This document shows, one piece after another, positions 1 through 27,675 of a stretch of DNA of 27,675 bases; the stretch's first letter is position 1, and each line of letters starts with the position of its first letter. The position numbers were made by a program, and so were the translations under genes. The notes under the pieces are model-generated. The model was not told the origin of the DNA, did no database searches, and saw only the letters and a program-made list of their open reading frames with translations. Source of the DNA: Stramenopiles sp. TOSAG23-6 (lineage: Eukaryota; Sar); assembly GCA_900128565.1 (NCBI GenBank), contig LT635979.1, forward strand, positions 1 to 27,675, given 5' to 3'.

Positions 1-63
1 TTTTTTTTCGTACGAAATTTTGTACCTAACAAATTTTTTTTGAAATATTTTTCCAAAATATAT
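1..63 (+). mobile_element. Introner-like intron, 5' end cut by window edge
   Basis: This is the 3' part of an intron of the repeated family. It opens inside the core palindrome (TTTCGTACGAAA), continues through TGTACCTAAC (branch-like A at 29) and ends CCAAAATATAT at 63, followed by coding sequence of the ankyrin gene. There is no AG between the branch-like site and position 63. The 3' boundary is placed by alignment to the other copies. The upstream exon is outside the window, so this junction cannot be tested by frame. Confidence 0.75.
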
Positions 64-1250
64 ACACTCGTCAAGGTTTTATAGATTTTTATGGGAAGAA
101 AAAAGGAATAGCAAACTGGAATAATGCTGTAGGGAAACCTAATAAAAGTAAAACAGATACTAAAACTCAAGGAAATTTTTCAATTAGTAAACACTTCAAC
201 ATTATGCAGATGTCATCCGAGAATCAGCAGAACAAGGGTCAGATGACTAGCGAAAGATCAATAAATGGAGAAGTTTTGTGTGATACTCAACAAAATCGAA
301 ATTTGTTAGTTACGAAATCCATGAATGATCAAATAGATGATGTAGCGGAAGGTATAGTTTCGTATTCATCTGATGCGAACGACGTCGATATAATGAAACA
401 AAAAAGTAAGTCAAATACAAATACAAATCAGAAACAAAATAAAATTAAGTCAAATACAAATGTGGAAAAAAATAAAATTAAGCCAAATGCAAATGTTGAA
501 CACCAACCAATGTTTGACTCCGTATTTGGTCCTAATTCTCCTGCTGGTCGTCGCCACATTATGGATGAAGATATGATTCTATATTCACCAAATACGATTA
601 ATATTGAAAAGAAGCAACTAAAAGAAAAGTCTAGAATTTCGAAAGTTCATACATCAGTGAATATCTCACCACCGACACCTCCGATTGCATTATCAGAACC
701 TATATCTGATCCAGTAGTAAATCAGAATAATTCCACTAATCCAGTAGTACATCAGAATAATTCAACCGACACCTTACTTCTTTCAAATGAAAATGTGCTA
801 AATACCACAACACAAAAAAAAACACAAAAAAAAGCAATACCTAATGTAAAGACTAACAAAACAAATAAAAGTAGTAAAAAGAAAAAAAATGATAGAAAAT
901 TAACAAAGAAAGAATTGGACCATAAACTTCATGAAGCTGCGAGAAAAGGTCGACCTCAAACTGTGAAGTACTTCATTGATGCTGGTGCAGATGTAAATTC
1001 TAGAGATTCTCGAAAGGGATACACGGCACTCCATCAGGCGGCATGGTACGGTCATCGTGCTGTAGTGCAAGTATTACTTAATCAGGGTGCAAGACCTCAA
1101 GTAGTAAACTTTCGCGGCGAAACAGCTGTAGATGCAGCGTCTCTTGCAGGAAGACCGGATATGGTAGAACTTATGAAGGATGCACTTGGTCCAACTGATT
1201 TCTTTGCTCCTGTAGAGGCTTCGGATAATGATAGTAGTAGTACTATATAA
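64..1250 (+). CDS. Ankyrin-repeat protein, 5' partial
   Basis: The first ATG in this frame is at 204 (348 aa from there). The frame is open and protein-like upstream to about position 64 (residues such as GFIDFYGRKK and NWNNAVGKPN), right up to the end of the intron at 1-63. I therefore take 204 as an internal Met and the gene as continuing before the window. The N-terminal two thirds is Asn/Lys/Ser-rich low complexity with short internal repeats (KSNTNVE-like, and PVVxQNNST twice). The last ~110 residues hold about three ankyrin repeats, marked by LHEAARKGR, DAGADVNSRD, GYTALHQAAWYGH and ETAVDAASLAGR. Ankyrin repeats are protein-binding modules; the partner and role are unknown. The gene converges on the next one with a 90 bp gap. 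Confidence 0.8.
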
Positions 1251-1340
1251 ATATTATATAATATAATTAGATATTCATCTTTAAAGATAGTGATTGTCGT
1301 GTAACATTTTTTTTAATTTATTTGATAGTAATAGGTATGG

Positions 1341-3281
1341 CTAAAATGCATATTTAACATTTAAATTACCACCATATGAATGCTTTCTTCGCATTGGAAT
1401 TTCATCTCCTTTATTAACATTATCATTTATTATCCTATTTGTAATGTTTGAGGTATTAGATTTCTTTCTTTGTTGCGCTGATGATACCCTGGTAATCTTT
1501 GAAGGTTGAAATTTTTTTCTCTGTCGCGCTGCTGATGCCGCACTAGCTCGTATTCTGGCATTTCCTCTAGTACTATTAGTTTGCACACGATAAATCTTAT
1601 TACTATAGCTACTATGTGAAACCTCTTTATTTATCTGTTGAACAACTTTAACGGCATTTAGTGCAGACCCACTAGCTACAAGCGGGGAAACATCTTGATA
1701 ATCTGGGTGAGATGTACCTTTTGATGTTGCTTTAATTGCAGCGGCAAGAGCTCCAGGAATGGTATTAAAATCAATATCCTCGTTATCATTTTGAAATCCT
1801 TTTTCTAGTTTCTGTACAGGAGAACTCCAAATCCCTTCCATTAAATGCGATCGCTTCTCAAACGGAGATACACTTGTGCTTATTGAATTTTCTCTTTTTT
1901 TGCTATCTGGTATTTTTACTGGAGTTTTCACAACGTTTTCCCATATTTCATCTATAGACATTTGCATTTCTAATAAGCCTTTAGGTTTTACTTTTTGAGA
2001 TATCATATTATCATTATTCATATCATCATCCCTTGTATTTTTTATATCTTTTGTATCTTTTGCATCATTTGTATCTATTGCATTTGTTGTATGTTTTGTA
2101 TCTATTGTATCTATTGGACTTTCTTGACTTGATGGTTTTTTACTACTGTGGTGGAGAGCAAAACCAATGGTACTATTTTTATTACTAACAGGAAAATTTT
2201 CACTAATATTGTTTTGCAAAATGACATTATTATCATTATTGATACTAGTGGCGTTGACTTTGCATTCAATGGGAATATCTCCGACATTTTCTTCATCATT
2301 AATCATCCCATGATCTTCAATTATTTCCATTCTATTCTCAATATTTCTAATTTTTTCCTCAATTTGTAATTTTTTTTCTTCTATATCAACATTTTTATAT
2401 TGATCATCATCATCCATTAATAATGCTCTTAACTCATCTTCCAGAATTTGCATTTCTTCATCTAACTGTTCATATTCATGTAAAAGTTTGGAATGATCTA
2501 CTTTATCTATATAGACTATTTCATGATGCGGTATGTTCGAATCTTTTGATGTTTCTGAAGGTTGGTTTCGATTAGTTTCAGAAGGTTGGCTTCGATTAGT
2601 TCCAGATAGCGCTTCCTCTAGTTTAACATTGGCTTGATGAAAGCTTTTGTTTCTACTATAAGAGAAATCAACAAAACTCGTTTTTTTAGATTGGCGATTC
2701 ACATGTGAATGTTTTAAATGGTCCGATATTTGAAATGTTGTTGACATTTTTGAAGCGACTGAAGATGAATTTTCAGAAAACTGACTTTTCAATAAACTCT
2801 CATCAGGGACAGGGACAGCAATGTCACTTGTGTGGGTTGCAGCTAGTTTCTGTGAAGAATGATCAACACTTTCATGTGCAGTCAGCACGTATGCAACCGC
2901 ATCTGCGGCAGCTGCAGCCAAACTATCAGCATCTTTGACGTGATCGAAATCGAAAACATCAAGACCTGCTGCGACAGCGCTTGCTTTATTACCTGTTGAA
3001 CGAGCACACTGGATGAGTTGTTTGTCCCGCTCTTTCCGCCAATTACGAGAGATCCGAATAATGCCATGTTTATCAAATGAATCCCGCCGTCGATTTAAGC
3101 GCTCCAACCAATTGTCAGACGCAGATGTATGTGGTTGGCTGTCTAACGATAATGAAGGAGATCTATCACCACGAGAAAAAGCCCTTCGAGCATTAAAACG
3201 AGTCTGGGTCAATGGTGAATTTATAAAGCCCTTTAGACCGCTTCCACGACTTTTGAGCTGCTCACGTGAAAGGACACTCAT
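1341..3281 (-). CDS. Uncharacterised coiled-coil protein, 646 aa
   Basis: A single uninterrupted frame starts at ATG 3281. I do not recognise a family. The N-terminus is Arg/Ser-rich (RRAFSRGDRSPS, WLERLNRRRDSFDKHG). An Ala-rich stretch lies near residues 120-130. Residues about 265-320 form an acidic coiled coil (LLHEYEQLDEEMQILEDEL, then IEEKIRNIENRMEIIED). The middle is Asp/Asn/Thr-rich low complexity made of short DTKDT-like repeats. The C-terminus is basic with ASAASAARQRKKFQ and is probably disordered. No signal peptide or membrane span is visible. A structural or cytoskeletal scaffold role is only a guess. The length and the biased but protein-like composition support a real gene; the opposite-strand frames inside it look like shadows. 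Confidence 0.7.
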   Translation of the reverse strand: MSVLSREQLKSRGSGLKGFINSPLTQTRFNARRAFSRGDRSPSLSLDSQPHTSASDNWLERLNRRRDSFDKHGIIRISRNWRKERDKQLIQCARSTGNKASAVAAGLDVFDFDHVKDADSLAAAAADAVAYVLTAHESVDHSSQKLAATHTSDIAVPVPDESLLKSQFSENSSSVASKMSTTFQISDHLKHSHVNRQSKKTSFVDFSYSRNKSFHQANVKLEEALSGTNRSQPSETNRNQPSETSKDSNIPHHEIVYIDKVDHSKLLHEYEQLDEEMQILEDELRALLMDDDDQYKNVDIEEKKLQIEEKIRNIENRMEIIEDHGMINDEENVGDIPIECKVNATSINNDNNVILQNNISENFPVSNKNSTIGFALHHSSKKPSSQESPIDTIDTKHTTNAIDTNDAKDTKDIKNTRDDDMNNDNMISQKVKPKGLLEMQMSIDEIWENVVKTPVKIPDSKKRENSISTSVSPFEKRSHLMEGIWSSPVQKLEKGFQNDNEDIDFNTIPGALAAAIKATSKGTSHPDYQDVSPLVASGSALNAVKVVQQINKEVSHSSYSNKIYRVQTNSTRGNARIRASAASAARQRKKFQPSKITRVSSAQQRKKSNTSNITNRIINDNVNKGDEIPMRRKHSYGGNLNVKYAF

Positions 3282-3650
3282 TTCTTTGATTGAAGCAAAG
3301 CCATTGAAATATTATCATTTCATTATGCAATTAATGAAAACGGTTGTTCGTGCTAATACCATCATACACCAATTTGTTATAAAAAGCTTCGTTAGAAAGT
3401 AATAAATATATAATATAGCTAGTAGTATATATAGCTATATAATTAGTTAACGGTTACTTGGCAGTTACGTACATATGACTTTACTAAACTACTACGAACT
3501 GTCTCAAAGGTAGTACTACTCTAGCTAGGATACATGTATACTATTAGCTAGTCTACTTTACAGATTGTAATAATGATGCCATTCTATTTCATTTGATACC
3601 CAAAAACATACTAGATAGTAGTCTAATACCCATTCATAAGCCTAAGGCCG
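3282..3650. other. Divergent intergenic region, 369 bp
   Basis: This lies between two divergently transcribed genes and presumably holds both promoters. It is AT-rich with many TA and CTAG steps (for example TATATATAGCTATATA near 3427 and several GCTAG/CTAGC words between 3417 and 3555). The open frame crossing the start of the minus-strand gene (3013-3402, +) is a shadow. I see no RNA gene here. Confidence 0.4.
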
Positions 3651-4994
3651 ATGAGATTAGTGAAGAAACCGTCACTAATTTCTCAACACACCCTTCGAAT
3701 ACTCAAAAAAAATAATTGTGACACTAGCTCTGCTGTGATTATCCATGAAGGAAATTGGGGGAGTAGAGACTCTGTGCAACGGCGAAATAGAAGACTTGAA
3801 TATGGAAACCATAAAAGGGGTATTGTCAAGAAAAAGAGTAGTATCCAAAAAGTCAAGAAAAAGAGTAGTAACCAAAAAGAGCAGCCTGCAACAGTGGTAA
3901 AAAGAAGTACACCCTATGAACAGCGCGAAGAAAAACAATCAAGTAAAGATGGCAAAACCTCTACTAAAAAATCTTTAGAGAAAGCTTTGGAGCATCAAAA
4001 AAAAAAGCGCATTATGCTTCAACTTAGACATATGGAACACCAGAGGCGTTTGGAAAAAACGCGCCTTAAAGCTCGAAGGAAAATCTCAAAACAATTTCCA
4101 AGCCATTGGAGACACAAACCAAAACGCAACATTAATGCACCTATTCACATAGAATCAACAAAGCACGTATCAGGTGGTCATCCTCCATTTGATTTCTCAG
4201 TTGGTACAATGCATTCAAATTATATCAAGTATATTTCTAAAGCTGTCGAAAACGAAGAAAAAGCTTTAGGAACTTATACTGGAAATGATGATTTGATTCA
4301 AAGACATGAGTCTGGTTGGGCGCCACGCGTTCTACACAAGATCAATCCATCATTTGAAAAAGATAGAATAAATGGAACGCTAGTCTTGAAAAATCCTCAA
4401 AAGGTTGTTCAAGACATAAATGCAGCCCGACTTGAAAAGAATGTTAATTTATCTTCCAAAAAGGTTCTTTTAAAGACGCGACATAAACTTGCAAGCGAAT
4501 TGAAAGAAACTTCTAATACATTAAGAAAACAAATCCGTCGAAAACATAAACGCGATAGAAAAAGTGTACTAAAATCAGCATTAAGTATGTTTCATGATGA
4601 TATTGATCTTTCACTTTATAAGCATCAACGAAAAAAGAAAGTATCTATTTTGGATTCAAAAGTTTCCAAACAAGGTAAAACGAAAAAGAAAGTTCAATGT
4701 TCAAAAAAAGGAAAAAAAAAAGTCCATGTTGGGAAATTTTCCATCTATAAAGGCAAACCATCACCTTTAAAGCATAGTATGAATTCAAGTAGCATGAAAT
4801 CTATTCTACGTTCATCAGGTGATGTTTTCAGATATCCCAAACTAATGAAAAGTACCGCCCAAATTATGAATACTACAATTAAAGAGAAGAATAAAATGAA
4901 CATACCTGAAAGAGTTGCACGTGCTATTACTTCAGAAAGAGACTTACAGTGTAAAGTCAAGGAACATTTAAGTCGTGTACATGTACGAGAGTAA
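3651..4994 (+). CDS. Highly basic uncharacterised protein, 447 aa
   Basis: One open frame starts at ATG 3651. The protein is extremely Lys/Arg-rich. A short tandem repeat near residues 60-78 (VKKKSS followed by IQK or NQK) matches a roughly 27-30 bp DNA repeat at about 3826-3880. Residues about 105-145 form a charged helix (EKALEHQKKKRIMLQLRHME). The central part (HPPFDFSVGTMHSNYIKYIS; HESGWAPRVLHKINPSFEKD) is less biased and is the best candidate for a conserved domain. Basic clusters such as SKKGKKKV could act in nuclear or microtubule targeting. No family is recognised. It converges on the K+ channel gene with a 136 bp gap. Confidence 0.65.
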   Translation: MRLVKKPSLISQHTLRILKKNNCDTSSAVIIHEGNWGSRDSVQRRNRRLEYGNHKRGIVKKKSSIQKVKKKSSNQKEQPATVVKRSTPYEQREEKQSSKDGKTSTKKSLEKALEHQKKKRIMLQLRHMEHQRRLEKTRLKARRKISKQFPSHWRHKPKRNINAPIHIESTKHVSGGHPPFDFSVGTMHSNYIKYISKAVENEEKALGTYTGNDDLIQRHESGWAPRVLHKINPSFEKDRINGTLVLKNPQKVVQDINAARLEKNVNLSSKKVLLKTRHKLASELKETSNTLRKQIRRKHKRDRKSVLKSALSMFHDDIDLSLYKHQRKKKVSILDSKVSKQGKTKKKVQCSKKGKKKVHVGKFSIYKGKPSPLKHSMNSSSMKSILRSSGDVFRYPKLMKSTAQIMNTTIKEKNKMNIPERVARAITSERDLQCKVKEHLSRVHVRE

Positions 4995-5130
4995 ATTAGT
5001 TCATAAAGTGAAATAAAAAAGAATTAACAAAGAAATAAGATACTGTACGTCTATATATATATAATTTAATCGATTCAATACATTCAAGTAAATTAAATAT
5101 CGCTACAAGATCATGAAATGTTCAAAAATC

Positions 5131-6336
5131 TTATAAATTCACTGCTTCCACATCAATATTGCCTTGTGGAACAACCTTGCTGTTTTTTTCTTTCTTCTTA
5201 TCCACTGTCCTCATACCTGTTTTTCTTTTCATAGCTTTCCTCCTTTTAGCTCTCCGCATGGCTTTGAAATCTAGCTCTTCCATATACTCAGAGTAACCTC
5301 CAAGAAGTCCAGACAGAAGTGCTAGTCCAAGTAGAGTTAAAAGGGCAAATGCAAAAAATCCAGATGCTTTGAACCATCCCTCTCTTTCAGGCTTAAACGT
5401 TGGAGCATAATCTCCAAATCCAATTGTCGAAAATGTGATAGTAGCAAAGTATACAGACTGTAGAAAAGTCCAACTCATCACGATTGGGCCAAACATACTC
5501 AAAAAGAATATGTAGACGATACAAACTGAACTAATAATAATTAACTGCTTCCACTTTGGTAAAAACCAGTAATGTTTTTCCTCTTGATTCATTTTTTTTG
5601 TATAATATGCTTTAGCCACTCTTTGAATGTAAACGAGAATGCGATCTGAAACTAATGTCAGGGTGTATCCGAAATATCCAATTCCAATAAAGCAAAATAT
5701 AGCAATAAATGCTTTACCTCCGTCCGTAGCAGGCGCAAAAGTACCATATCCAATTGTAGAAATAATCGTCATCATAAAAAATATACTTGATGTGATTTCC
5801 CAGCTCATCGCCTTCACATCCGAACCTGAAATATCTCCACTACTTAAGCCTTCCAGCTGTGTTTTCAAATACGAAGGTATAACACCGACATATTTAGCCC
5901 CAGTAGCATCTGCTGGACATTGTTGTACACCATCAGACAATTTTGTTGAATCTTTGTTTGCGTTACAGTTTGTTACTGTGAATATGAAGTCGCTTTTAAA
6001 TCCTGAAGAGCTGGTACCTGAAGCAGCTTCAAAAGTAGTAAAAGCAGTCGCACTATCGTCGAGATAATCTTGCACAAATGATGCCTGCTTGTGATAAGCA
6101 ATAGCAGCATCTTTTTCTGCATCTGCTTCTATCAATTGAAAAATAAAAGCACCTCCTACCAATATGAAAACCGTTATCAAAAAGTGAACGCCGCACTGCA
6201 GATTCGAATAACGGTTACGATGTTGAAGTTGAAGATGATGTTGCCAAGACTCTAGTTTTAGTTTATCCAAAGCCTTTTTTGACATGCTTGCCTTTCTTTT
6301 AACTTTCCCTTTGAACTGAAACTCACCATCCTCCAT
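5131..6336 (-). CDS. Two-pore-domain (K2P/TWIK-like) potassium channel
   Basis: The 401 aa protein starts at ATG 6336. It has the K2P order: TM1 (about 50-69), a long extracellular loop with C124 and C140 (about 70-180), pore loop 1 with selectivity filter T194-IGYG, TM2 (about 208-230), TM3 (about 264-286), pore loop 2 with T304-IGFGD, and TM4 (about 322-346). The C-terminal cytoplasmic tail is very basic (MRRAKRRKAMKRK). Two filters per chain imply a dimeric channel giving background K+ conductance at a membrane. The TIGYG and TIGFGD filters are what is seen; ion selectivity is inferred from the family. No EF hands are visible in the tail, unlike plant TPK channels. Confidence 0.92.
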   Translation of the reverse strand: MEDGEFQFKGKVKRKASMSKKALDKLKLESWQHHLQLQHRNRYSNLQCGVHFLITVFILVGGAFIFQLIEADAEKDAAIAYHKQASFVQDYLDDSATAFTTFEAASGTSSSGFKSDFIFTVTNCNANKDSTKLSDGVQQCPADATGAKYVGVIPSYLKTQLEGLSSGDISGSDVKAMSWEITSSIFFMMTIISTIGYGTFAPATDGGKAFIAIFCFIGIGYFGYTLTLVSDRILVYIQRVAKAYYTKKMNQEEKHYWFLPKWKQLIIISSVCIVYIFFLSMFGPIVMSWTFLQSVYFATITFSTIGFGDYAPTFKPEREGWFKASGFFAFALLTLLGLALLSGLLGGYSEYMEELDFKAMRRAKRRKAMKRKTGMRTVDKKKEKNSKVVPQGNIDVEAVNL

Positions 6337-6605
6337 ATTTGAAGATTTGTACTATCGAGCAACGGGTAATCAAGTGAGTAACACCAAATGAGTTGTATAC
6401 ACCTTTATGTAGAGTTTGGTTTGCAAAGTTGCGACCTATTTCCGTTACTTTCGAGATTTTCGTGAAACTCCCTAAATAACGGACTTTTTTTTCCCTTTTT
6501 CGTGTTTTGTTTTGCTACCCCCAGTTTAAACTTTCAAGAATATATTATTACTCAATCTTTCGGAGTTCATCCAAATCGTTAAATTTTACATCGCTACTTT
6601 GCATA

Positions 6606-6827: not shown

Positions 6828-6897
6828 ATATTTTCATGTGAAAAGTTATGTACAATAAGAAAGGACAGTAATGTGTTAAAATGTTGATCATTTTTTT

Positions 6898-8852
6898 TTA
6901 TAAAAAATTAGATTGAGTAACCTTCATAGCCATATTTTTTTCCATCCGAGCTTTTTTTTTCCCTTTTAAACCTGCTACTTTATCTTCATATGTACCACCG
7001 CAGTGTCGTTTGCACAATTTCGTATACTTCTTTGTACGATTATCAGTAAAATCTGCATCAACGGTAAAACAATCTTCTTCGGGAGAATGACTCGCATTTT
7101 CTATTGATTGTAGCAGCGTTCTGGCCATTGCCGCTTTCACAGAATATCGACACCATTGCTTTTCAACAACTTTCCTAATTGATGACAATGCACGTGTACT
7201 AATTGTGTGATCAAAATCAAGGTTATCAAAACTACAATCATACAAAAGAAGAGGCCAGTCTGGTGCCATGTCGTATCCAGGTTTACAAGGGCATTTTGAA
7301 ATATCTAAAAGTTGTTTAATTATGTATTTTAGAAAAATATTTAAAAAAAAAAAAAATTGTTAGGTACAAAATTTCGTACGAAAAAAAAATAAATTCGAAA
7401 TTGAAAAAAAAATAAAACATACATAGAAGGGTTTTCTTGACCACGACCGACTAGAAATAGTACCGCAACCATACAACGTACTTGATGCCATAAAAATCCA
7501 CGTCCACAAATTTCAAATACGAAAACTTCATCAGTATTGTTTTCTTGTATTGTTTCATCATTACTTTTCATTTCTTCTTCTTCTAAAATTTTTACTCCGT
7601 TTTGGGTTGCTTTAAATATTTTACAGGTGAGAATTTCTCTAACAAAATTGTGGACATTTACCACATCCATTTTACAAAAGTTACGAAAGTCATGCTGACC
7701 AACGAAATACGATGCTGCTTCTTGCATTTGATGAAGATTGAGGGATCTCTTTGGGAAGAAATATCTATAAGTTCTACTACGACAACTAAATCGTGCATCA
7801 AATGGTTGCAATGTTTGAGATTCATTTTTTTCATTTAATTCTTTCAAACGAAATGTATGTTTTTGTCTTGGAGCTTCGGACCAACCTAAAACTCTAATTT
7901 CTAAAGGTAATACATTATTTAGTAGCATTGCGTAGTCATGTTCTTTTTTGTGCATGTTGAGTTTACTTTCTAATGAACTTGAAGGTATTAAACGAACACT
8001 GAGCGTTCTACTTTTGAACTGTTTCTCAAAAACACAAGATTCTGATGCACCAACATCTCTCCAAGTTGAGTTTTTCTCGTCCAATATTTGAATGATTGTA
8101 TCAATCGGTGCAATTCCCATATAGTGATCGATTTTAGTTTCCAAATCTGCAACAGTTGCATTTTTTGGAAGATGTAGACAGGTTTTTCGGAAACCTCCGA
8201 ACATTTCAGTTTCCACTTTGACTACAACGTTATCACTATCATCAATAAGATCAATTTGTTTAGACTTATACTCCATATATTTAATACCTTCGGCAGCAGA
8301 CTTTGATGCGGCTTCTGTGAGAACACGGGGAACAAATGCAACACCACGTTTGAGTTTTGACCGAAGGTTCAAAGCAATAACTTGACCTGATGCACTAACA
8401 CCTTTATCGGTGCGACCACAACGGGAATACACAGATGATAAACGGTTTTCAATAAGGCAAGTTTTTTGTAAAGCATCAAATAGTTTTGATTCTACAGTAT
8501 TATCCGTATCAGATTGAGATGCGAGACCTAAATAATCTTCTCCATTATACCAAACTTTAAGAGCAATATGCCGCTGTCTATATTGTGAGAAATCAAATGG
8601 TCGACGGATCTTTTTCTTCTTTTTACATTTCACTTTTGCTGTTTTGTTATTTACACTAATGGAAGAATGTACAGTTGCTGTAATGACTTTTTTAGTTATT
8701 GTAGACAGCCGAAGTTTTTTAAGAGGAGGCTCTTCTAGTTGCACATGAGAACCTACGATACGACCGTTAATTTCGATTCTAGGACTTCCACTACGGTATT
8801 GCTGTACCAAATCAATCAGTTCCTCTTTTGAAAGGTTATCCAACCCATCCAT
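6898..8852 (-). CDS. PUS3: tRNA pseudouridine synthase, PUS3/Deg1-like (two exons)
   Basis: Exon 1 is 8852-7423 and exon 2 is 7321-6898, giving 617 aa after removal of a 101 bp intron. ATG 8852 (MDGLDNLSKEE) is the first ATG; the longer frame starts at TTG. A basic N-terminal extension (KCKKKKKIRRP) precedes the TruA-family core. FDFSQYRQRHIALKVWYNG and RCGRTDKGVSA follow, with catalytic Asp139, then CRSRTYRYFFP and FLWHQVRCMVAVLFLVGRG. PUS3 enzymes make pseudouridine at positions 38/39 of the tRNA anticodon arm. The join gives ENPS-II-KQLLD then CPCKPGYDMAPDWPLLLYDC, collinear with PUS3 of other eukaryotes. Without the intron the frame runs into nonsense at 7422. The gene is divergent from fumarylacetoacetase, with 229 bp between start codons. 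Confidence 0.9.
7322..7422 (-). mobile_element. Introner-like intron in PUS3 gene, 101 bp, GT...AT ends
   Basis: On the minus strand it begins GTATGTTTTATT at 7422. It carries the core palindrome TTTCGTACGAAA and GTACCTAAC (branch-like A at 7360), then poly-T, and ends CTAAAATACAT at 7322. The join TCT-ATA-ATT keeps the frame and restores the conserved ENPSII segment. The nearest downstream AG (CTTTTAG, about 20 nt into exon 2) would shift the frame. The dinucleotide AT lies on both sides, so the exact cut can slide by 2 nt without changing the product. Confidence 0.88.
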
Positions 8853-13984: not shown

Positions 13985-15391
13985 ATGTCGTATCAAAGGA
14001 TTGAAGATGTGGATTTTCATGGACATGCTCATAGTGGTGCTGACCATGGGCATAGTCATAGTCACAACGACAGTCACAGTGGTAATGACAACGGTCATTT
14101 CGAGCATCATAGTGATCACGGACACAGTCATCAAAGTGATCATGGACACAGTCATCAAAGTGATCACGGGAATAGCCATCAAAAAGATCACGGTCATAGT
14201 CATCAAAGTGATCACGGGCACAGTCATCAAAGCGATCACGGACACAGTCACCACAGTGATCACGGACACAGTCATGGCTCACATGATTTAGACCATGATA
14301 GAGAAGCGTATTTGGTCGCTAGACGAAAACTGTTATGTGCCGGTGGCTTCTGTTTTGTTTTCATGATTGTAGAAGTTATTGGAGGTTATATCGCGGGATC
14401 CTTGGCAATAATGACTGATGCTGCGCACTTACTCAGTGATGTTGCTGGATTTGCTATTTCTTTATTTGGGCTATATGTAGCACAAAAACCGACAAACTTA
14501 GAGTATACTTATGGTTACCAGAGAGCTGAAGTCATTGGTGCAATTCTTAGTGTTTTGATGTTATGGTTTCTGACTGGTATTTTAGTGTATGAAGCGATTA
14601 ATCGGCTAATACATCCGAGTCCTGTTGATGGTAAAATTATGTTTATAGTCGCAACTTTGGGTTTGTTTGTTAATGTCATTATGGGATTAATTTTAGCATA
14701 TTCAGGTCATGGTCATTCTCACGGCGAACTTCCTGGTTCTTCACACGGTCACTCACATGGCATTATTGCAAAAGAGACAGAGACTGAGAGTATCGCTGTT
14801 CGATCAGCTCTTATTCATGTTGTTGGAGATTTGGTACAAAATGCTGGAGTTATGTGTGCGGCAGGTTTAATTTGGTATAATCCAAAATGGACTGTTGCGG
14901 ATCCTCTCTGTACATTCGTATTTGCTACTTTAGTGCTTGCCACAACACCGGGAATTCTCAGGCAAGGTTTTAATATTCTTCTCAGTGCTGCTCCAGTGGG
15001 AATGTCGGGTCAAATTTATTCAGATCTAAGTGAAGTTCCTTGTATTGTTGATGCTCATGATTTACACATCTGGCCGTTAAATTCTTCTGGAAAACTTTCA
15101 TTAACAGTTCATGTCGTTGCGACCGACAAAGAAAAAGCTCTAGATGCCGCTCAATCTATTGCTAAAAAATACGAAATACGCCACACAACGATTCAAGTAG
15201 AAGGTGCAAATTCTATGGAAGTCGAAAATTGTGCAACTATAAATATGCATCATCATAATGAACTTGGATCATTTTTCAAAACAAGGAAGGATTCGGACTC
15301 TGATCATTATTTTCAAACGGCTCATGTTGATACCAAAATAAATATGAACCATCCCGAAACAAATCATTATGGAAGTACAAGTATTGGATAA
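13985..15391 (+). CDS. Zinc transporter, cation diffusion facilitator (ZnT-type)
   Basis: The 468 aa protein starts at ATG 13985. The His-rich cytosolic N-terminus (residues 12-106) includes seven SDHGHSHQ-like octads. Six membrane segments follow: about 114-137, 139-165, 181-204, 216-241, 272-294 and 300-325. The two zinc-site motifs of vertebrate-type ZnTs are intact: H148-xxx-D152 in TM2 (TDAAHLLSDV) and H278-xxx-D282 in TM5 (IHVVGDLVQNAGV). A second His-rich loop (SGHGHSHG, SHGHSHG) sits between TM4 and TM5. A C-terminal cytosolic domain has VDAHDLHIWPL. The HxxxD pair at both sites points to Zn2+/H+ exchange out of the cytosol into an organelle or out of the cell. Both other reading frames of the octad repeat stay open as artefacts. 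Confidence 0.95.
   Translation: MSYQRIEDVDFHGHAHSGADHGHSHSHNDSHSGNDNGHFEHHSDHGHSHQSDHGHSHQSDHGNSHQKDHGHSHQSDHGHSHQSDHGHSHHSDHGHSHGSHDLDHDREAYLVARRKLLCAGGFCFVFMIVEVIGGYIAGSLAIMTDAAHLLSDVAGFAISLFGLYVAQKPTNLEYTYGYQRAEVIGAILSVLMLWFLTGILVYEAINRLIHPSPVDGKIMFIVATLGLFVNVIMGLILAYSGHGHSHGELPGSSHGHSHGIIAKETETESIAVRSALIHVVGDLVQNAGVMCAAGLIWYNPKWTVADPLCTFVFATLVLATTPGILRQGFNILLSAAPVGMSGQIYSDLSEVPCIVDAHDLHIWPLNSSGKLSLTVHVVATDKEKALDAAQSIAKKYEIRHTTIQVEGANSMEVENCATINMHHHNELGSFFKTRKDSDSDHYFQTAHVDTKINMNHPETNHYGSTSIG
14111..14278 (+). repeat. 24 bp tandem repeat x7 (His-rich octads) in ZnT gene
   Basis: Seven in-frame 24 bp units, consensus AGTGATCACGGACACAGTCA plus TCAA, encode residues 43-98. Units differ at a few positions (one starts Lys, one has Asn for His). 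The array is expected to vary in length between strains. Confidence 0.95.
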
Positions 15392-17976: not shown

Positions 17977-18037
17977 GTACTATTTTAATGTGAAAGGCAC
18001 ACAAGCTGTTTATAAGCATTATATAATGATTTCCAAA

Positions 18038-19475: not shown

Positions 19476-20613
19476 ATGATCAAGACGAAATTAGAAACAA
19501 AAACAATGGGACCTACCCAAAATGCAATCCAAGAAAAGTATGGCTATAGACAATGGTTGTCTAAAAACTATGATTTTGCTAAAAAGCTTGAGGACGGAGC
19601 GCGTATGCTAACGTTGTTATGCTCTTCACAACTTGATGAGAGGTCTGGTCTCCTAGCTGAAGGTGTGTACGCAGTTATAAATACAATAGGAACTTTAAAC
19701 GACCATATTATATCTCGAGGTGAAACAACAATTGGTAGCAAATCTGCATGGGCATTGACCCTGATAAGTAATCTTGCTGTAGTTGCTGAAATGCTCTCTG
19801 CTAGAAAAGGAAATAAGTCAAAGTGGCGTACAATTACTTATGTCGAGTTGTTGAAGGCTGCTCTTAGAATTATGATTCTTATACGTAGTGGCTGGGCTAC
19901 CCAAATAAATGATTCTTTGTACATGCCAATTGACGACGATGTTCAAAGAACAAAAGATCAACAATTGTGGTGGAGAGGTCGTCGTAGTGGCTCTTTGATA
20001 CCACTTCCTTCTGGACTCTCTGCTCACAAATTCAAACAATTGAAGAACAAAGGAACACTTGTTCGTTCTCCAAATACTCCACGAGGTGTATATTCCAGTA
20101 TTGGTGAATTACTGTATATAATACGACCTGTAGTTTTCTCATTGATGCGATCTAAACAAAATACAAATACAAAGAAAAATATGTTCTGGGCTCCTTTTCT
20201 CCTATCCCTTGCTATTGACTTTGCGAGCTATCGTTGTTCAAATGCAGCTGTGAAATCAGCAGAAAAACGTGATGAAGCAACTACTGTAGGAGGCGGATCA
20301 GTACCATCTTTTATTAGTATGGAATTTTCTAGACGAAAACTTTTGTGGTTACTTTACGCACTTAGAGAACCTTTCTTCAGTTCTGTCACAAAAAGAGCAA
20401 CAGACAAAGTTAGCTCTTTGTCAAGTATGTTTTATTTTTTTCAATTTCAAAATTATTTTTTTTTCGTACGAAATTTCGTACCTAACAAATTCAACAAAAA
20501 AAAATATTTTTCACAATATATATTACGTTCCACTTTTTGGTATGTTAGTTCGTTATATGCTTGATATGTTGTACTATATCCAGCGACATCACTTTTATAT
20601 CTCTGGCTCATAA
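19476..20613 (+). CDS. PEX16: Peroxisomal membrane biogenesis protein PEX16 (two exons)
   Basis: Exon 1 is 19476-20424 and exon 2 is 20522-20613, for 346 aa. ATG 19476 is taken; ATG 19506 (MGPTQNAIQ) is an alternative. Pex16 is an integral membrane protein needed to insert peroxisomal membrane proteins. Collinear signs include YRQWLSKNYDF near the start, IIRPVVFSLM, WAPFLLSLAIDF, and the C-terminal FSRRKLLWLLYALREPFFSS before the intron. Removal of the GT...AT intron joins L-S-N-Y to VPLFGMLVRYMLDMLYYIQR then FYISGS and stop, matching the VPxxG and aromatic FY ending of the family. Reading through the intron gives an unrelated tail (FYFFQFQNYFFF). It converges on the tail-anchored gene with a 179 bp gap. 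Confidence 0.88.
20425..20521 (+). mobile_element. Introner-like intron in PEX16, 97 bp, GT...AT ends
   Basis: It starts GTATGTTTTATT, has the palindrome TTTCGTACGAAA, then TCGTACCTAAC (branch-like A at 20485), a 36 nt AG-free stretch and the end CACAATATAT. The join is in frame and restores VPLFG. Here a GT-AG alternative also keeps the frame (AG about 25 nt downstream, in GTATGTTAG), but it would delete the conserved VPLFG segment. This is one of two copies in the window where AG use is compatible with the frame. Confidence 0.82.
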
Positions 20614-20792
20614 AAATAAACATATACAATATTTTTATATTTCAAGTTGAATTTAATGTAATAATAAAAACGTGTTATTTAGAATGTTAAATATTATTTT
20701 CTATTTTAGAAACTATTTCAAAAGTGTTTACGATTTAAAAAAAATGAAAACCTTTCATAATCTAATCCTAGGTACATATATCTACAACCCTA

Positions 20793-21362: not shown

Positions 21363-21744
21363 TGGTACGCACTTAGTATTGTTACAATCAAGACATTTCG
21401 ATGATATAATCAATCTCCAATATTATTTATATTATATAAGCTTGGAGTATGAAAGAATACTAGCGAAAACACGAAAAATAAATTAAAATTTGACCGATAT
21501 GAAAAAAATACGCTCATTGCGCGCCAAACGTCGGTCGACTCGATCGATCCATCAAAAAAAAAGAAGAAGAAGAAGTGATTGATGTGTGTGTGCCGCTTCG
21601 ATTGATTCCGATTGATTGCGATTGGTACCAGGTCCCAGGAGCTGTTCTTTTTTTGAATTATTGATCATTCACAACAGCGACACTGTTCACGACAACGAAC
21701 AGCAACACGAGTCTGTTCAAGGCAGTAACTGTTTCGAGATAACG
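21363..21744. other. Divergent intergenic region with purine tract
   Basis: This 382 bp region lies between divergent starts. It holds a less AT-rich block near 21515-21560 (GCGCGCCAAACGTCGGTCGA, CGATCGATCC), then an A/G-rich AAG run and GATTGATTCCGATTGATTGC near 21600-21620. A 21 nt word at 21564-21584 (AAG x4 then TGATTGATG) recurs inside exon 1 of the following gene at 21911-21931. The frame of that gene is open back to 21616 but only with a TTG start. Confidence 0.4.
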
Positions 21745-23706
21745 ATGAATATATCGTTTTTCTCGGACGTTTCCACCACAAGTTACCAAAATCTTTCGGC
21801 AGCTTGTGTATTTGACGGCTGCAATCAGTCATCAATAGTATTCGGGAATGATCAAGAAAATTCCTTTGATAGTAATTTTAACGCTTCCGCAGAGTTTGGT
21901 CGGGGAGAAAAAGAAGAAGAAGTGATTGATGACTCCATTTATCAAGGGAAGCCCCCCATAGAAATCAAAAGTCCACGTAGTCCACAACTAAATGGTACAA
22001 ATTTGTTTTTGCCAAGGTCCAAATTGACTGAAAGTATCTTGGAAAGCAAGTCGCCTGTACATTTGCATCATTCATTTCAAATTTATAGTTCAAGTTTTAT
22101 TTATTTTATATCCAATGTGTCTAATGAATTTCAAATTTGAAATATTCTTTTACAATATATGTTCCTATATCTCGAAATGATCAAGATGATATTAGAAATG
22201 ATGTCAGTGTCCCCGCTACTGCCTGTTCTGACTTCTCTACCCCGAGTAGTTTTGACGGTTCTAGTGCACCAGGTGGAGGCGTTGATGTGACTTCTCGTAA
22301 ACATACTGGTGATCAAGATGATATTAGAAATGATGTCAGTGTCCCTGCTACTGCCTGTTCCTCCCTCTCTACCCCGAGTAGTTTGATCGGTTCAAGTGCA
22401 GCAGGTGGAGGCATTGATGTGACTTCTTGTAAACATACTGGTGGATACATTCATGATGACCATACAAACAAAATAACACCCAACAAAAATGTACATTTAC
22501 GTCATTCATTTCAAATTTATAGTTCAAGTTTTATTTATTTTATATCCAATGTGTCTAATGAATTTCAAATTTGAAATATTCTTTTACAATATATGTTCCT
22601 ATACCTCGAAATGACCAACAAGATGATATCAGAAATGATCTCAGTGTCCCTGCTACTGCCTGTTCCTCCCTCTCTACCCCGAGCGGTTCAAGTGCAGCAG
22701 GTGGAGGCATTGATGTGACTTCTTGTAAACATACTGGTGGATACATTCATGATGACCATACAAACAAAATAACACCCAACAAAAATGTACATTTACGTCA
22801 TTCATTTCAAATTTATAGTTCAAGTTTTATTTATTTTATATCCAATGTGTCTAATGAATTTCAAATTTCAAATATTCTTTTACAATATATGTTCCTATAT
22901 CTCGAAATGACCAACAAGATGATATCAGAAATGATGTCAGTGTCCCTGCTACTGCCTGTTCTGACTTCTCTACCCTGAGTAGTTTGGTCGGTTCTAGTGC
23001 AGCAGGTGGAGGCATTGATGTGATTTCTCGTAAACATACCTGTGGAACTCGTGGAACTGGTGGTTACATTGCTTGCCCTAAATGGACCACTTCAAAAAAA
23101 AGTGCCATATTGGCAAGAGATATTTTGTGTTGTCAAAAAAAACAACAACCCGATCAAGGTGGTCTTGTCATGCACCGTCATTGCAAAATACAACACTCGA
23201 ATCTTGGTGGACGAAATTGTTGTTTGAATGCCTTCGACTTTGCAACTGGAAAATTTCGTACAGTCACAAGGAAGCAGATGCAACTGGAAGGTGCAGGCGA
23301 CATCAGCATTATTGACATAGCCAAATACGTTAATGAATGTGGAAAGAAGGTACCCTTTAGATTGCGTACAAGGCCTGGGATGACCTGGGGTTGCCTAATT
23401 TCAAAAAAAGAAGGAATATTTGTTGGTCGTAGCTATGTTTATTCTGATAAATCTCATCATTACATCGTTTATGATGCCTGGCGCTCGATCATATATATTG
23501 GATGTGGTTTTGCAGATGTGATGATCCAGGAAAGTGATCGTGAGGATCCAAAAGCCTTTGAGAAAAGATTTTCTGATGAATATGGCCTTGGTCTCCAAGT
23601 GGAACATTTGTACTGTTTGTATGTCATTGCAAAGCATGCATTCAAAACAACATACAACACTCCAGATGACTACAAGCCTAAGTCGAAGAAGCGTAAGCTA
23701 ATGTAA
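21745..23706 (+). CDS. Repeat protein with C-terminal Cys/His domain (four exons)
   Basis: Exons are 21745-22056, 22161-22490, 22595-22786 and 22891-23706 (312, 330, 192 and 816 nt, all multiples of 3), giving 549 aa. ATG 21745 (MNISFFSDVS) is chosen; the frame upstream has only TTG. Residues about 105-300 are four copies of a Ser/Thr/Gly-rich unit (QDDIRNDVSVPATACS, GSSAxGGGxDVTSxKHTG), probably disordered. The C-terminal ~230 residues are globular: Cys pair NCC at 388-389, DISIIDIAKYVN, KVPFRLRTRPG, GIFVGRSYVYSD, then H467-H468 and D473 in HHYIVYDAWR, and a basic end KSKKRKLM. Cys...His...Asp order could be a papain-like hydrolase triad, but no family is recognised. Each apparent separate frame here is one exon of this gene. 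Confidence 0.72.
22057..22160 (+). other. GT...AT intron 1 of repeat gene, 104 bp
   Basis: It begins GTACATTTGCATC, has GTCTAATGAA (branch-like A at 22124), the 16 bp palindrome ATTTCAAATTTGAAAT, and ends TTTTACAATATAT. The join CCT-GTT is in frame. The next downstream AG would lead to a stop within about 90 nt. The 5' and 3' words belong to the same design as the introner copies, but the palindrome is different. Confidence 0.82.
22491..22594 (+). other. GT...AT intron 2 of repeat gene, 104 bp
   Basis: It is the same length as intron 1 and differs from it at two bases near the 5' end (TACGTC for TGCATC). The join AAT-GTT keeps the frame. ATGT occurs on both sides of the junction, so the cut can slide by up to 4 nt with the same product. 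Confidence 0.82.
22787..22890 (+). other. GT...AT intron 3 of repeat gene, 104 bp
   Basis: It differs from intron 2 at one base, in the palindrome (TTTCAAAT for TTTGAAAT). The join AAT-GTT is in frame with exon 4. Introns 2 and 3 start exactly 296 bp apart, the period of the segmental duplication. Confidence 0.82.
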
Positions 23707-24543
23707 AAAATGTGTCTTTATATGGTATAGTGAGTTTTTCCTAGTATTTTTGTTTTTATTACCAAGATGAATAATGTTAGTTTTGAAAATAAGAATTTTA
23801 TTCATTTAAAATACTATTGACATATTGTGCATATTATTTGATACCAAGACTGATAATGTTCGCTTTAAAAATAGCAATGCTTATTCATTTTTAAAATATT
23901 GTTCGACACAAAGACAAATAATATTAGGTTTAAATGCATTGTTTATTCATTTTTAAAATACGGCTAACATATTTTACATATTATTGGATATATTTTTGTT
24001 TTATTGCAAAGCAATTGAAAATAACATTGTTTATTCATTTTAAATACTACTAACATATTGTCCATATTATTTCCATCATATATGTCCCCCTCTAGTTTTG
24101 GAGTTTTTTTTATAAAGTACTGTATAATTTGGGGCAAATATTGCCCTATGTGTTTTTGACCTTTTTTTTTTTTGATTTTTTGATTATTCTATTGTTTTGG
24201 GAATTTCAACATATATTATGTAGTATAAAAGTTGAGTCTCCTAGAGTAAATGAAAATGGAAACTTCTATTTATTACTAATGAGCTTGATGTCCTTGGTTT
24301 GTGAATCTTTTATTCATATTGTGATACCTCTAGAATTTCATACTACATGTATTATTGAAATGTGTAAACTACGAATAAGAAATTTCAAATTTTGATTTGA
24401 GATTTTTAGATTGCCATTGCGGTCAAAAACTGTCATTTTTGATGATTTTTTGAAATTTTTATCATTTCTCGTGCCTTGCATGATTAATCAGAAGGTTTTA
24501 TCAACTTTGTTGGTTTATTTTTTACTTTGTGTCTGCATTCGCC
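23707..24543. other. Long AT-rich intergenic region, 837 bp
   Basis: This is the longest gene-free stretch. Its first part (about 23760-24073) is a degenerate tandem array, listed separately. The rest is AT-rich with a T10 run at about 24164 and no protein-like open frame. The 88-codon frame at 24129-24395 is F/I/L-rich from AT bias and starts without context, so I leave it out. The 3' UTR of the repeat gene and the promoter of the DENN gene must lie here. Confidence 0.5.
23761..24073. repeat. Degenerate AT-rich tandem repeat, about four units
   Basis: Units share the order ACCAAGAnnAATAATnTTnG, TTTAAAAATAnnAATG, TTATTCATTTTTAAAATA and CTAACATATTNTNCATATTAT. Starts are near 23761, 23841, 23907 and 24015 (the last lacks the first block). 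Spacing is about 65-110 bp and divergence is high, so this is an old array. Confidence 0.65.
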
Positions 24544-27500
24544 ATGAGTGGACGTGATCGTTTGATTGATTACTTTGTTTGTTCTTCTTGTGATGATTAT
24601 GAATCGCAGCTGCAAAGTATGCTTGCCGAAACTTCAGAAGTTTATGGATCGGATCTTCCGATAACAGATCTTGCGGTCATCTTTCCAACGTGTGGTGATT
24701 CAGTTCCCGATGGTTTCGAGGTCATTGATAGAAGCTATGGTGGTCAAAGTGCAGACTTAAATGGCGGGCGATTTATGTCTAAGATTTGCTATATCTGCGT
24801 CGAACGAAAGTCTAACAATCGTCAACCTATTATTGACATAAAACTAATCAAAGTCAATGAAAGTGACATTGTAGAATACAGAAAATATGTACCTGGAGTT
24901 ACACCAGAATCCCCTACGAATAAAACAACTTTATCAGCTGGAGGTCGTACAATATTAAAACTAGCTCTCTCTGGGTATATTATTATTAAGGAAACACCGT
25001 CTGGTTTGCCTGCAAATTTAAATATGGGTCGGTTTGGTCCAGACATTTTCATGGCATTTAGAAGACAAGCAGATGTTCCTACTGTTGAAGAATTATACAG
25101 ATCATTGGCCCCCATTGTCGAAGTTGCCGTCTTACAGCCTGGTAATACCACACCACCTCCAGGTTTTTTTATGGATCCTACAAATGTCAATGAAGTGAAA
25201 TTATCAAGGACACCAGCACGGCATATCTGTTTCCGACGTGCCGAAGCCAATTCTTTAATAGATTATACATTTGAAGCAAAAATTTCAGATCGATTTCCAG
25301 AGAGTAATTATTCTGACTTTGATTTGCCTTCAATTATTCATCATTTTTGTTTCCCTCAGGGAGTTAAACTAAAAAGATGTAAAAATGATGCGATGCCAAT
25401 ACCTACTTGGCATATCTTTGTACTTACCGGTGGTGCTGGACAAAGAGTATTCGGAGCTTGCCTAACGTTTTATGAGAAACTTTCAAAGGAGACAACGTCT
25501 GCAATTCAAAATCTACAATGGAAAAATCGAATTTCATTGATAAGTAATGAAGGATTGAAATTAGAACCGATAAAATCTAGTGTATCGAATGGACCTACAG
25601 GTGAAATGTCTAATATGTGCACATATACACCAAAGTGTATTGCTGTACTCTCACATTTTGCATTTTTTAAACCCCTTAAACAGTTTCTCACACAATTATA
25701 TAGTGTTTCGTTAGGTACTTCTCTTGTTCCAATTGAACGGATAATTGGTCAATTTCTACTCAATGTGCCAAGACCTGTCTCTGGAGAGCAATCAGTGATG
25801 ATGTGGCCTGCTAAAGATAAAACATTTTCAGAATTAACATTCAATCCTGATAATCTAAACAATCCGGAAATTGAGGGATCTCAAAAAGTCATTAGTGGAG
25901 CTTTCGATACAGTTGTAATGACTGCGGATGAACGTGGTGACAATGGACAGTTTGTAACATCTAAAAAAGTTCCCGCAGGATCTGTAAAATTTACACCGTC
26001 AGATGTCAAATTCTCAGCTCCAAGGGCTGATTACCTCCCTTTGTTAGATTTATCATTTGTTCCTTTATTTCAACATTTAGGGTGTGATCTTGTAATTGCG
26101 GTAATCTATACACTTCTATTAGAAGAACGTGTACTTTTTTATCATTCATTTAAATTTTGTGTTTTGGTAGAAAATTCTGTACCTAACAATTTTGTTTTGA
26201 AATGTTTTTCACAATACATGTACTTTTGGTTTCCCGACAACTTGCACTACTTGGTCAAGTGGGTGAGCTTTTGCGTGCATTACTTTTACCCTTCCAATGG
26301 CAAGGTGTTTACATACCAGTTTGTCCTAATTACATGTCCGGATTTTTAAATGCTCCGATGCCTTTCATATTAGGTATATCACCTGATGAATTACCAAATG
26401 ATTTGGTACCAAAAGAAGGCCAACTCGCTGTCCCTGATGATGTTTTGTGTGTTAACCTTGATAGTAATTCAGTGTCCATGGGTTGGCGAGGCAATCAAAA
26501 AGGTGATACAGTTAGTGATTTAATCCGTGGGTCTGAATGGCGTGCATGTTCTAATGCAGCAAATGAGTTAGCTAAAGTAGTAAAATCTAGTGGAATTGAT
26601 CCAAAAGGTCCTTCGTATTCTTGTATGTTTTCATTAGAAATTTCGAATATAGTATTCAAATGTATTGTTCAAATATATTGTTTAAATATATTGTTTACAT
26701 ATATTTATGTTTGTATCAAATGTTGTTTCCAATAATTATTGAATTTGACATAATTTTTCACATTACATCTACTTCAAATGACAACATCAAAAATAAAACA
26801 ACAAACAATTTAGATTTTGGCTTTGCATTCAAGACTGAAATGTGTGTAGATTACAATTTGCCACCACTACGCATCCGTGCAATTGTCTTGACAATGATGT
26901 GTGAAATTCTTGGAGGTTATGTATGTTTCATCGCCAACATTTTTGTAAGAAAATTCTGTACCTAATGATTTTTTTACTAACAAAATATATACATATATAT
27001 ATTTTTCACAATTCATAGACGTTTTCTTAAAATTGGATTTCCAAAAAATAATACTCAAATAAAATCTGATGCTAGTGTTTCATCAAGTAGCTGTGAGACT
27101 AATCATGTATGTTTTATTTTTTTTTTACAAAAAATTCGATTTTTTTTTTCGTACGAAATTTTGTACCTAACAAAAAACAATTTGAAATATTTTTCCAAAA
27201 TACATTTCGTATACGTTTATTTGAAAATAATAGAATTTACACCAAAAATAACAAAAATACAAATTCTGATTGTTTATGTAAATATTTGAGTATTGACCGA
27301 GAAGGACCTCTTTATGTTTTCACAATATATCTAACTCGTTCATCGTATGATATGATTCCAAAAGAAATGCAAATAATTATAGAAAAAAGTAATAGATGTA
27401 CGTAGTCTTGTTATATTTCGTGTTTTTTTTTTTTTTTTGTAAAAAAAAATTTGTAAAAAAAAGTCATACCTAACGATTTTTTTAAACAAAAACAAAATCT

Positions 27501-27616
27501 TTTTTCACAATACATCTCATAAACAAAATGGAAACAAAATTAAGGGATTAATTCGTGTAATTCCTGTAATCTTTCAACAAGGCATTAACGAGAAAGCATT
27601 ACTTCAAGACTGGGTT
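24544..27616 (+). CDS. MABP/DENN-domain protein, 3' partial (six exons seen)
   Basis: Exons: 24544-26130, 26220-26622, 26769-26920, 27017-27106, about 27206-27397, 27516-27616. ATG 24544 (MSGRDRLIDYFVCS) is the first ATG; the open frame begins upstream at GTG. Two MABP-like segments (DLAVIFPTCGDSVPDGFEVI; VAVLQPGNTTPPPGFF) precede uDENN (HHFCFPQGVKL, HIFVLTGGAGQRVFGACLTF, residues about 270-315). The DENN core has LLLEERV-LLVSRQ, LLLPFQWQGVYIPVCPNYM and a dDENN part RAIVLTMMCEILGGY-RRFLK. The layout resembles animal DENND4 and plant SCD1, which are Rab GEF-type traffic regulators. Exon 6 has a QGINE motif, seen also in some inositol phosphatases; I draw no conclusion. Removing GT...AT introns is needed to keep DENN motifs whole. 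The gene continues beyond the window. Confidence 0.88.
26131..26219 (+). other. GT...AT intron 1 of DENN gene, 89 bp
   Basis: It begins GTACTTTTTTATC, has a decayed core (TTTTGGTAGAAAATTCTGTA then CCTAAC, branch-like A at 26186) and ends TTTTTCACAATACAT. The join GAA-CGT-GTA-CTT-TTG restores EERVLLVSRQ, a conserved DENN segment. The 9 nt TGTACTTTT at 26130-26138 recurs at 26219-26227, a possible target-site duplication. An AG about 40 nt downstream breaks the frame with this 5' site. Confidence 0.88.
26623..26768 (+). other. GT...AT intron 2 of DENN gene, 146 bp, diverged
   Basis: It begins GTATGTTTTCATT and ends AATTTTTCACATTACAT. The inside is different from the other copies: it has an imperfect 15 bp repeat (AATATATTGTTTA-like) and no clear CTAAC. 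The join TCT-TCT-ACT is in frame. A GT-AG alternative ending in CAATTTAG (about 26818) is also in frame and would drop 16-17 low-complexity residues, so this one is less certain. Confidence 0.65.
26921..27016 (+). other. GT...AT intron 3 of DENN gene, 96 bp
   Basis: It begins GTATGTTTCATCG, has the decayed core TTTTTGTAAGAAAATTCTGT, then CCTAATG and a second ACTAAC (A at 26980, 36 nt from the end), and ends TTTTTCACAATTCAT. The join gives GGY-RRFLK, the conserved end of the DENN module. Using the AG two bases further on (CATAG) gives a stop after three codons, so it excludes the nearest AG directly. Confidence 0.9.
27107..27205 (+). mobile_element. Introner-like intron 4 of DENN gene, about 99 bp
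   Basis: It begins GTATGTTTTATT, has the intact core TTTCGTACGAAA and TTGTACCTAAC (A at 27170), and ends CCAAAATACAT. With the standard ends the flanking exons are out of frame by one base. Frame returns if the 5' site is the GT four bases later (27111, giving TNHV-FRIRLFENN) or the 3' end is one base earlier (ACA). The exon that follows is clearly coding in the second frame. Confidence 0.72.
27398..27515 (+). other. GT...AT intron 5 of DENN gene, 118 bp
   Basis: It begins GTACGTAGTC, has long T and A runs, CATACCTAACG (A at 27473) and the end TTTTTTCACAATACAT. The palindrome is lost. The join AGA-TCT-CAT is in frame and continues NRSHKQNGNKIKGLIRVIPV. The first downstream AG (ATTAAG) would break the frame. 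Confidence 0.82.
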
Positions 27617-27675
27617 GTACGTTTTATTTTTTTTTCAATTTTGAATTTATTTTCGTACGAAATTTTGTACCTAAC
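27617..27675 (+). mobile_element. Introner-like intron 6 of DENN gene, 3' end cut by window edge
   Basis: It begins GTACGTTTTATTTT after a codon-complete exon (QDWV), has the near-palindrome TTCAATTTTGAA, the core TTTCGTACGAAA and stops at GTACCTAAC at the last base. The 3' end lies outside the window. Confidence 0.8.

Follow-up and report, generated by a model that had tools for sequence, protein, structure and literature searches.

Introner-like introns that appear to end mostly in AT instead of AG in the genome of a probable MAST-3 stramenopile

Nearly all eukaryotes close their introns with AG, one of their most conserved signals. Several genes in the DNA analysed here are interrupted by segments that begin with GTAY and close on AYAT, which raises the question of whether these segments are introns, where exactly they are cut, and how AT came to stand where AG is expected. 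The window, i.e. the whole stretch of 27,675 nucleotides, is contig C29 of a eukaryotic assembly of 8,027,113 bases (8.03 Mb) in 408 contigs which, judging from the name of one EukProt record, is probably the single-cell genome of a MAST-3 stramenopile, an uncultured marine protist. We consider it likely that the segments are spliceosomal-type introns which originate from a short, non-autonomous, DNA-transposon-like introner, and that the copy of a two-base target, XY, supplies their AU 3' end. The reading frames give strong reason to think that removal occurs in frame at these ends, and there is a fair case that the spliceosome is responsible for it.

A sequence-only reading had listed 12 introns in the window and all of them are present, ten complete and two truncated where the window starts and stops (Table 1); the 11 visible donors read GTAY, as it had claimed. 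Its statement that the reading frame is restored at the AT ends holds for nine of the ten complete introns under a codon model trained on this genome. The exception, 27107-27205, would be repaired by an end at ATACA, by a donor 4 nt later or by correction of an assembly error. A CTAAC or CTAAT near the 3' end, also part of that reading, is found in nine of the ten, at 37-46 nt counted from the C, and is missing from the intron at 26623; in all nine introns with the motif no AG lies between it and the end, again as had been claimed. The next AG is out of frame in each of the seven introns for which this had been asserted (7322, 22057, 22491, 22787, 26131, 26921 and 27398), and falls in frame in those at 20425 and 26623, which had not been listed. 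The intron at 26921-27016 has an additional CTAAT at 55, and use of the AG directly 3' of its end would break the frame. That at 20425-20521 has a left flank AA and a right end AT, with a small upstream margin of the codon model (1.9). In the PUS3 gene, the junction left by intron 7322-7422 aligns without gaps to a solved tRNA pseudouridine(38/39) synthase (PS/IIKQLL to PEIIDELL; slashes mark the cut throughout).

Table 1. Introns of the class in the window, with their terminal sequences and the evidence for each.
Feature	Position	Strand	Sequence	Basis
3' part, class intron cut by window start	1..63	+	TCGTACGAAATTTTGTACCTAAC ... CCAAAATATAT	sequence
Class intron, PUS3 gene	7322..7422	-	GTATGT...CTAAAATACAT	frame join and homologue alignment
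Class intron, PEX16-like gene (name from the sequence-only reading)	20425..20521	+	GTATGT...CACAATATAT	frame join
Diverged class intron, copy 1 of 3 near-identical	22057..22160	+	GTACAT, CTAAT, ...TTTTACAATATAT	frame join
Diverged class intron, copy 2	22491..22594	+		frame join
Diverged class intron, copy 3	22787..22890	+		frame join
Class intron, DENN-like gene (name from the sequence-only reading)	26131..26219	+	GTACTT...CACAATACAT	frame join
Class intron, DENN-like gene	26623..26768	+	GTATGT...TTCACATTACAT, no CTAAY	frame join
Class intron	26921..27016	+	GTATGT...CACAATTCAT	frame join
Class intron by sequence	27107..27205	+	GTATGT...CCAAAATACAT	sole complete one without frame restored (codon model)
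Class intron	27398..27515	+	GTACGT...CACAATACAT	frame join
5' part, class intron cut by window end	27617..27675	+	GTACGTTTTATT...GTACCTAAC	sequence

These introns belong to a large family. The genome-wide motif search that the earlier reading had proposed gave 431 matches to a strict motif GTACCTAAC..CAATAYAT (run as GTACCTAACN{10,40}CAATAYAT, duplicated contigs counted) and none in the reversed control. With A, C or G as the final base there were 43 matches (20 G, 12 C, 11 A; reversed 0), a number that again counts duplicated contigs and includes a few that are not true ends, such as the one in contig C82 (locus L043), which continues to ...TACAT. A weight-matrix scan of the window and 40 loci (L001-L040) identified 122 distinct elements, compared with one in reversed sequence; the loci had been picked for the presence of the strict motif in them or on their contigs and are thus uninformative on density. 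The matrix skips two bases at either end, and includes AYGT at +3 to +6, the branch motif and the pyrimidine tract. The elements are 87-120 nt long and carry the branch motif 37-52 nt before the end (5-95%, n=122), with the branch C at a median of 43 nt from the intron end. Their consensus ends are short and inverted (GTATGT vs GTATTGT). Doubled or nested elements occur at L054:62-245, L033:6986-7148, L033:7452-7630 and in L042; they are either two introners that adjoin without an exon between them or internal duplications of the part with the branch motif. An exact scan for one 23-base pattern gave no matches in the viral or the prokaryote collection.

The ends were assessed by a frame test that used flanks of 75 nt and a hexamer model derived from the long open reading frames of this genome. 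A clear coding frame on both sides was obtained for 100 of the 122 elements, and in the count of in-frame joins, likewise proposed beforehand, a cut at GTAYGT and AYAT restored the frame in 87, whereas a cut at the first AG did so in 34, about the chance level. Retention would bring a stop or a frameshift in 82 of the 87. Among the 13 out of frame, three are mis-assigned donors (window 27417, L033 7047 and 7513), and the other ten include window 27107. An AG between branch motif and end is present in 26 of the 100; 22 of these are in frame at the AYAT end and nine at that AG. By a more lenient test, 74 of 77 elements (window and L021-L040) lie within an open spliced frame. When breaks in coding frames were collected in the window and 16 loci, 43 of 58 gaps carried a class element and ten more were diverged members as judged by eye, one of which ends in CACAGTACAG and one of which has an end not shown; the last five were intergenic or short frameshifts. 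A GT-AG intron of another kind was not seen among these 58 gaps.

Introns were also collected without use of the motif, by comparing the genome with the Pfam models Pkinase, kinesin, TCP1, myosin, SNF2 and AAA and reading by eye 26 chosen stretches with gaps between exon matches or matches with internal stops. Without contig C380, the 3' end could be read in 38 introns, of which 28 end in AT, six in AG (the first of L048, that of L051, the fifth of L059, the second of L060, the second of L064 and that of L067) and three in AA (L050, the first of L059, L066). The remaining one, the third of L059, is a 49-nt remnant without a branch motif. Two introns fit the class loosely, in L043 (donor AATGCG) and L050 (end TTCATACAA), and the branch motif is missing from the second intron of L052, from L055 and from one of L063. 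L045 and L053 were read and have no introns, and the TCP1 search yielded, apart from the gene on C380, only single-exon pieces and a gene without introns.

Removal of the introns joins conserved residues. The joins include KPY/TYKSD, HR/DLKP, MH/RDLKPNN, GY/PPFYG and RNN/NSSRFGK, as well as DSL/GGTSKT, where two elements stand back to back; outside CDK7, the sequences at the kinase and kinesin joins are ones that we take to be motifs of these proteins. Removal of intron 1 of the GlnRS gene gives RDPILYRV, which matches homologues. Junctions without gaps relative to solved structures were obtained for CDK7 (three introns), PUS3 (one), AAA (two) and SNF2 (the first of two), and in myosin for four introns (with AA, AT, AT and AG ends) and the remnant, whose ends were set by homology. 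In an ILVBL-like gene the joins WII/WGDG and DAC/WTQI are likewise gapless. The myosin remnant (L059:797-845) has a class donor and neither a branch nor a terminal motif, its removal is needed for the conserved FHIFY, and it represents either a deletion or an assembly error.

When the boundaries were left unconstrained in a scan over 1150 pairs, which covered 14 introns for which a homologue was available but neither the myosin remnant nor SNF2 intron 2, the pair given by the motif came first or tied in five, and in 11 of the 14 the best pair removed the same length, slid by a few bases; in CDK7 intron 1 the motif-based pair lies 13 points under the best. The exact cut therefore rests on the motif together with a small body of evidence from XY, the two bases before the donor. 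These equal the last two intron bases in 79 of 122 elements, while 5000 shuffles gave a mean of 58.6 and a maximum of 68, which argues that the element proper is GTAYGT...ACAATAY and that XY is a 2-bp target copy, so that the terminal AT would mostly be the copied target. Among non-AT ends, 12 of 22 equal their own left flank. Agreement of the flanks stops at -3, being about as expected from -3 to -6. A 4-bp target duplication (XYGT) was considered and dropped, as the agreement between intron start and right flank was 61 vs 58.6 and 51 vs 49.7 expected by composition.

The two copies of XY do not behave alike. The right one is AT in 100 of 122 elements and the left one in 70; a right AT with another left occurs in 33 elements, and a left AT with another right in three, an asymmetry which indicates that AT is maintained or preferred as the end of the intron. 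No age difference was seen between XY-matching and non-matching elements, nor were those with matching non-AT XY nearer to the consensus, so that age lends no support to a drift towards AT.

An invasive intron class with an extended ACAAUAYAU element at its 3' end, as put forward by the sequence-only reading, is thus borne out at the DNA level, while several details of the ends are not. The last two bases are not fixed, as those which are not AT include GT, AC, TT, AG, AA and others. Nor is AG absent from the ends: it occurs in 20 of 474 strict matches and in six of the 38 introns found without the motif, although only two of the 122 scanned elements have this typical U2-type terminus. The 5' GT is not invariant either, since 23 of 122 elements start otherwise, some of these being mis-assigned donors in doubled elements; non-GT donors backed by homology are GAACGT in the GlnRS gene and GGATGT in the ILVBL-like gene. 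Finally, no canonical GT-AG intron had been recognised in the window, and such introns without the class motif are present elsewhere in the assembly, on contigs C380 and C275. The latter has a kinase intron GTATGT...ACTATAG. On C380, an HSP60 gene (L058, C380:31800-34560, - strand) contains long GTAAGT...AG introns without the class motif; a further 7 kb of this contig showed no TACCTAAC, one weak AATATAG match and no clear class element. Its coding usage resembles that of the host, and it might be a contaminant. AG is usable as an intron end in this genome, and AG acceptors are probably still served.

Four other explanations have to be weighed. If these were ordinary GT-AG introns, the acceptor would be the nearest AG before or after ACAATAYAT, and the AG-ending members just described do show that AG can be used. 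We nevertheless regard this explanation as scarcely credible: the first AG restores the frame no more often than chance, as opposed to the AYAT ends, and in 13 of the 14 introns compared with a homologue even the best-scoring AG, with the donor unchanged, falls 1 to 81 points short of the assigned end, the 14th (the fifth myosin intron) having AG as its assigned end already. A subtler alternative shifts both boundaries by two bases, giving an AT-AC intron XYGTAYGT...ACAATAC with the right XY exonic. The resulting mRNA is the same wherever the two copies are identical, and a hexamer score on which copy is exonic is neutral (14 vs 13). The 27 elements with differing copies speak against it: a stop arises in three if the right copy is kept and in none if the left one is, although the numbers are small and the left copy belonged to the flank used for calling the frame. 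Keeping the right copy would moreover put a stop before the conserved W in the ILVBL-like gene and turn HRDLKP into HHDLKP in L044, where the HRD is presumably that of kinases, and the right XY is the more uniform of the two. HRDLKP and the tryptophan need the left copy, and together with the stop counts this makes the intron /GT...AT/; a few cases thus support an exonic left copy, and we consider the shifted boundaries very improbable.

The remaining two alternatives dispense with the spliceosome. Were the segments removed from DNA, like the internal eliminated sequences of ciliates, the assembly would represent unprocessed DNA, and a 2-bp duplication with precise restoration would fit. Yet 92 of the 94 elements with a scorable orientation are in sense and two in antisense (28 of the 122 were not scorable), and GTAYGT, CTAAC and a T-tract at a fixed distance are signals of the transcript strand for which DNA excision has no need, so that this is very unlikely. 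Non-spliceosomal removal through paired intron ends, as discussed for the non-canonical introns of euglenids and diplonemids, could draw on the partial complementarity of GUAYGU and ACAAUAY. The predicted pairing of nucleotides 1-6 with the last 12 is 0.24, vs 0.15 after shuffling of the last 12 (60 of the 122 elements). Such pairing is weak and short, however, and would leave the conserved branch motif and T-tract without a role; we think it most improbable.

Donor, CTAAC, T-tract and sense orientation point instead to the spliceosome. A U2-type GT donor is found in 99 of 122 elements, the GT lying outside the scan matrix, and a CTRAY branch motif with a pyrimidine tract, which is built into that matrix, is also present in most introns found without the motif. 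A gene with a Prp8 PROCN domain is present. Searches for U1, U2 and U6 snRNAs gave no match, a result which by the tool's own control does not show their absence. U12-type introns have an RTATCCTT donor and a branch site TCCTTAAC 10-20 nt from the end; an assignment to the U12-type or AT-AC class was rejected, as the donor here is GTAYGTTTT and the branch C has a median distance of 43 nt from the end.

We favour a process in which an element of the form GTAYGTTTT ... ACCUAAC branch motif ... U-tract ... CACAAUAY would insert in sense orientation into coding exons, chiefly at AT/G, duplicating its 2-bp target XY. Many similar copies at intron positions of one genome, short inverted ends and the 2-bp duplication are what is expected of an introner; a transposase would presumably have moved the element. 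The pre-mRNA would then read exon-XY/GTAYGT ... ACAAUAY-XY/exon, and removal from GT through the second XY would restore the target exactly, rendering the insertion silent for the protein. With AT as the usual target, the intron would usually end in AU and not in AG. Host splicing would accept AU as the 3' splice site after ACAAUAY, about 37-52 nt past the branch motif, and pass over nearer AGs, and later mutation may move most non-AT ends to AT. A more far-reaching version, to which we give an even chance, is that a mobile AT-targeting element rewrote the rule for the 3' splice site: the spliceosome would take the YAU in ACAAUAYAU as standard, with AG as a tolerated minority, and new GT, TT, AA and AC ends would be removed until mutated to AT.

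Introners described as DNA transposons (Gozashti et al. 2022, PMC9860276) are alike in their many similar introns, inverted ends and target-site duplication, in splice sites that derive partly from the duplicated target, and in mostly keeping the mRNA length. They differ in that the core nucleotides which that paper reports are GY/AG, with rare GC and GA donors, whereas the target copy supplies AT here, and in that it quotes 3-9 bp for the duplications of earlier families, compared with 2 bp. By analogy, the present family would work like an introner whose duplicated target gives part of a splice site, but with AT as this part. The marine protist Amoebophrya (PMC7789003) has likewise been invaded by non-canonical introns that carry direct and inverted repeats. 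There, >60% of introns are described as non-canonical, with no clear signature at their ends, and some have hairpin-forming inverted repeats of 8-20 nt; the introns described here share one strong consensus with a branch motif, a terminal ACAATAYAT and short ends. AU 3' ends also occur in Fritillaria borealis (PMC13326754), an animal with duplicated U2AF subunits, while here a single introner family has one dominant AU end. Non-GT-AG introns are the majority in two diplonemid species as well (PMC12621601), but their ends base-pair extensively and are reported to lack splice-site conservation, in contrast to the conserved donor, branch motif and 3' element found here. Human U2 introns with TG 3' splice sites (PMC2374985) indicate that ends without AG are possible, as alternative sites in 36 genes and not as a standard end like AT here. 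The first three of these non-AG systems (PMC7789003, PMC13326754, PMC12621601) show that the introns of a genome can be predominantly non-AG; in the parts of these papers drawn on here, no single introner family with a fixed ACAATAYAT end is described. If most detected introns are AT-ended by virtue of their insertion site, the spread of introns and an altered splicing rule would be directly linked, and one could test which part of the spliceosome gave way: U2AF35, Prp8, Slu7, Prp18 or an snRNA.

There are also consequences for annotation. With both class introns removed, the protein of the GlnRS gene (L034, contig C43) has as its best match the EukProt P0001 model GSMAST32.ASY1.ANO1.2262.1, which is identical over most aligned exon stretches. 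The model is without several stretches, including conserved exon parts, is disrupted at each of the two introns and runs on into intron 1, apparently through forcing of GT-AG introns; other gene models of the genome may be affected in the same way. From its name, we infer that it belongs to the published annotation of the same genome, of the kind in PMC5778133. Given these breaks in the sole published model compared, gene counts and calls of pseudogenes that rely on GT-AG models in this group may need rechecking. The main text of that study (Seeleuthner et al. 2018, PMC5778133) contains neither 'splic' nor 'canonical', and 'intron' twice, neither time on splice-site types; it regards dynein heavy chain genes as pseudogenised in MAST-3A, to which unrecognised introns could have contributed, provided that MAST-3A has the same intron class. 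Among the papers listed by our literature searches there was no report of such introns in this group of organisms. The best 120 matches each to GlnRS and importin-alpha protein queries included no recognisable transcript of the organism, those listed for importin-alpha being distant homologues only.

Some further observations concern duplications in the assembly and in the window. Contigs C13 and C14 are near-identical and there are inverted duplicates within C2 (L024, L025) and C37 (L038, L039), all with the same elements; these represent either haplotypes or artefacts of assembling amplified single-cell DNA. At 14081-14299 of the window, repeats with a 24-nt period encode a His-rich N-terminal stretch in a protein that, from its motifs, we take to be cation-efflux-like. 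The region 22057-22976 is a tandem exon-intron repeat gene, and its 296-nt unit (22385-22976) includes the intron, which indicates that exon and intron were duplicated together.
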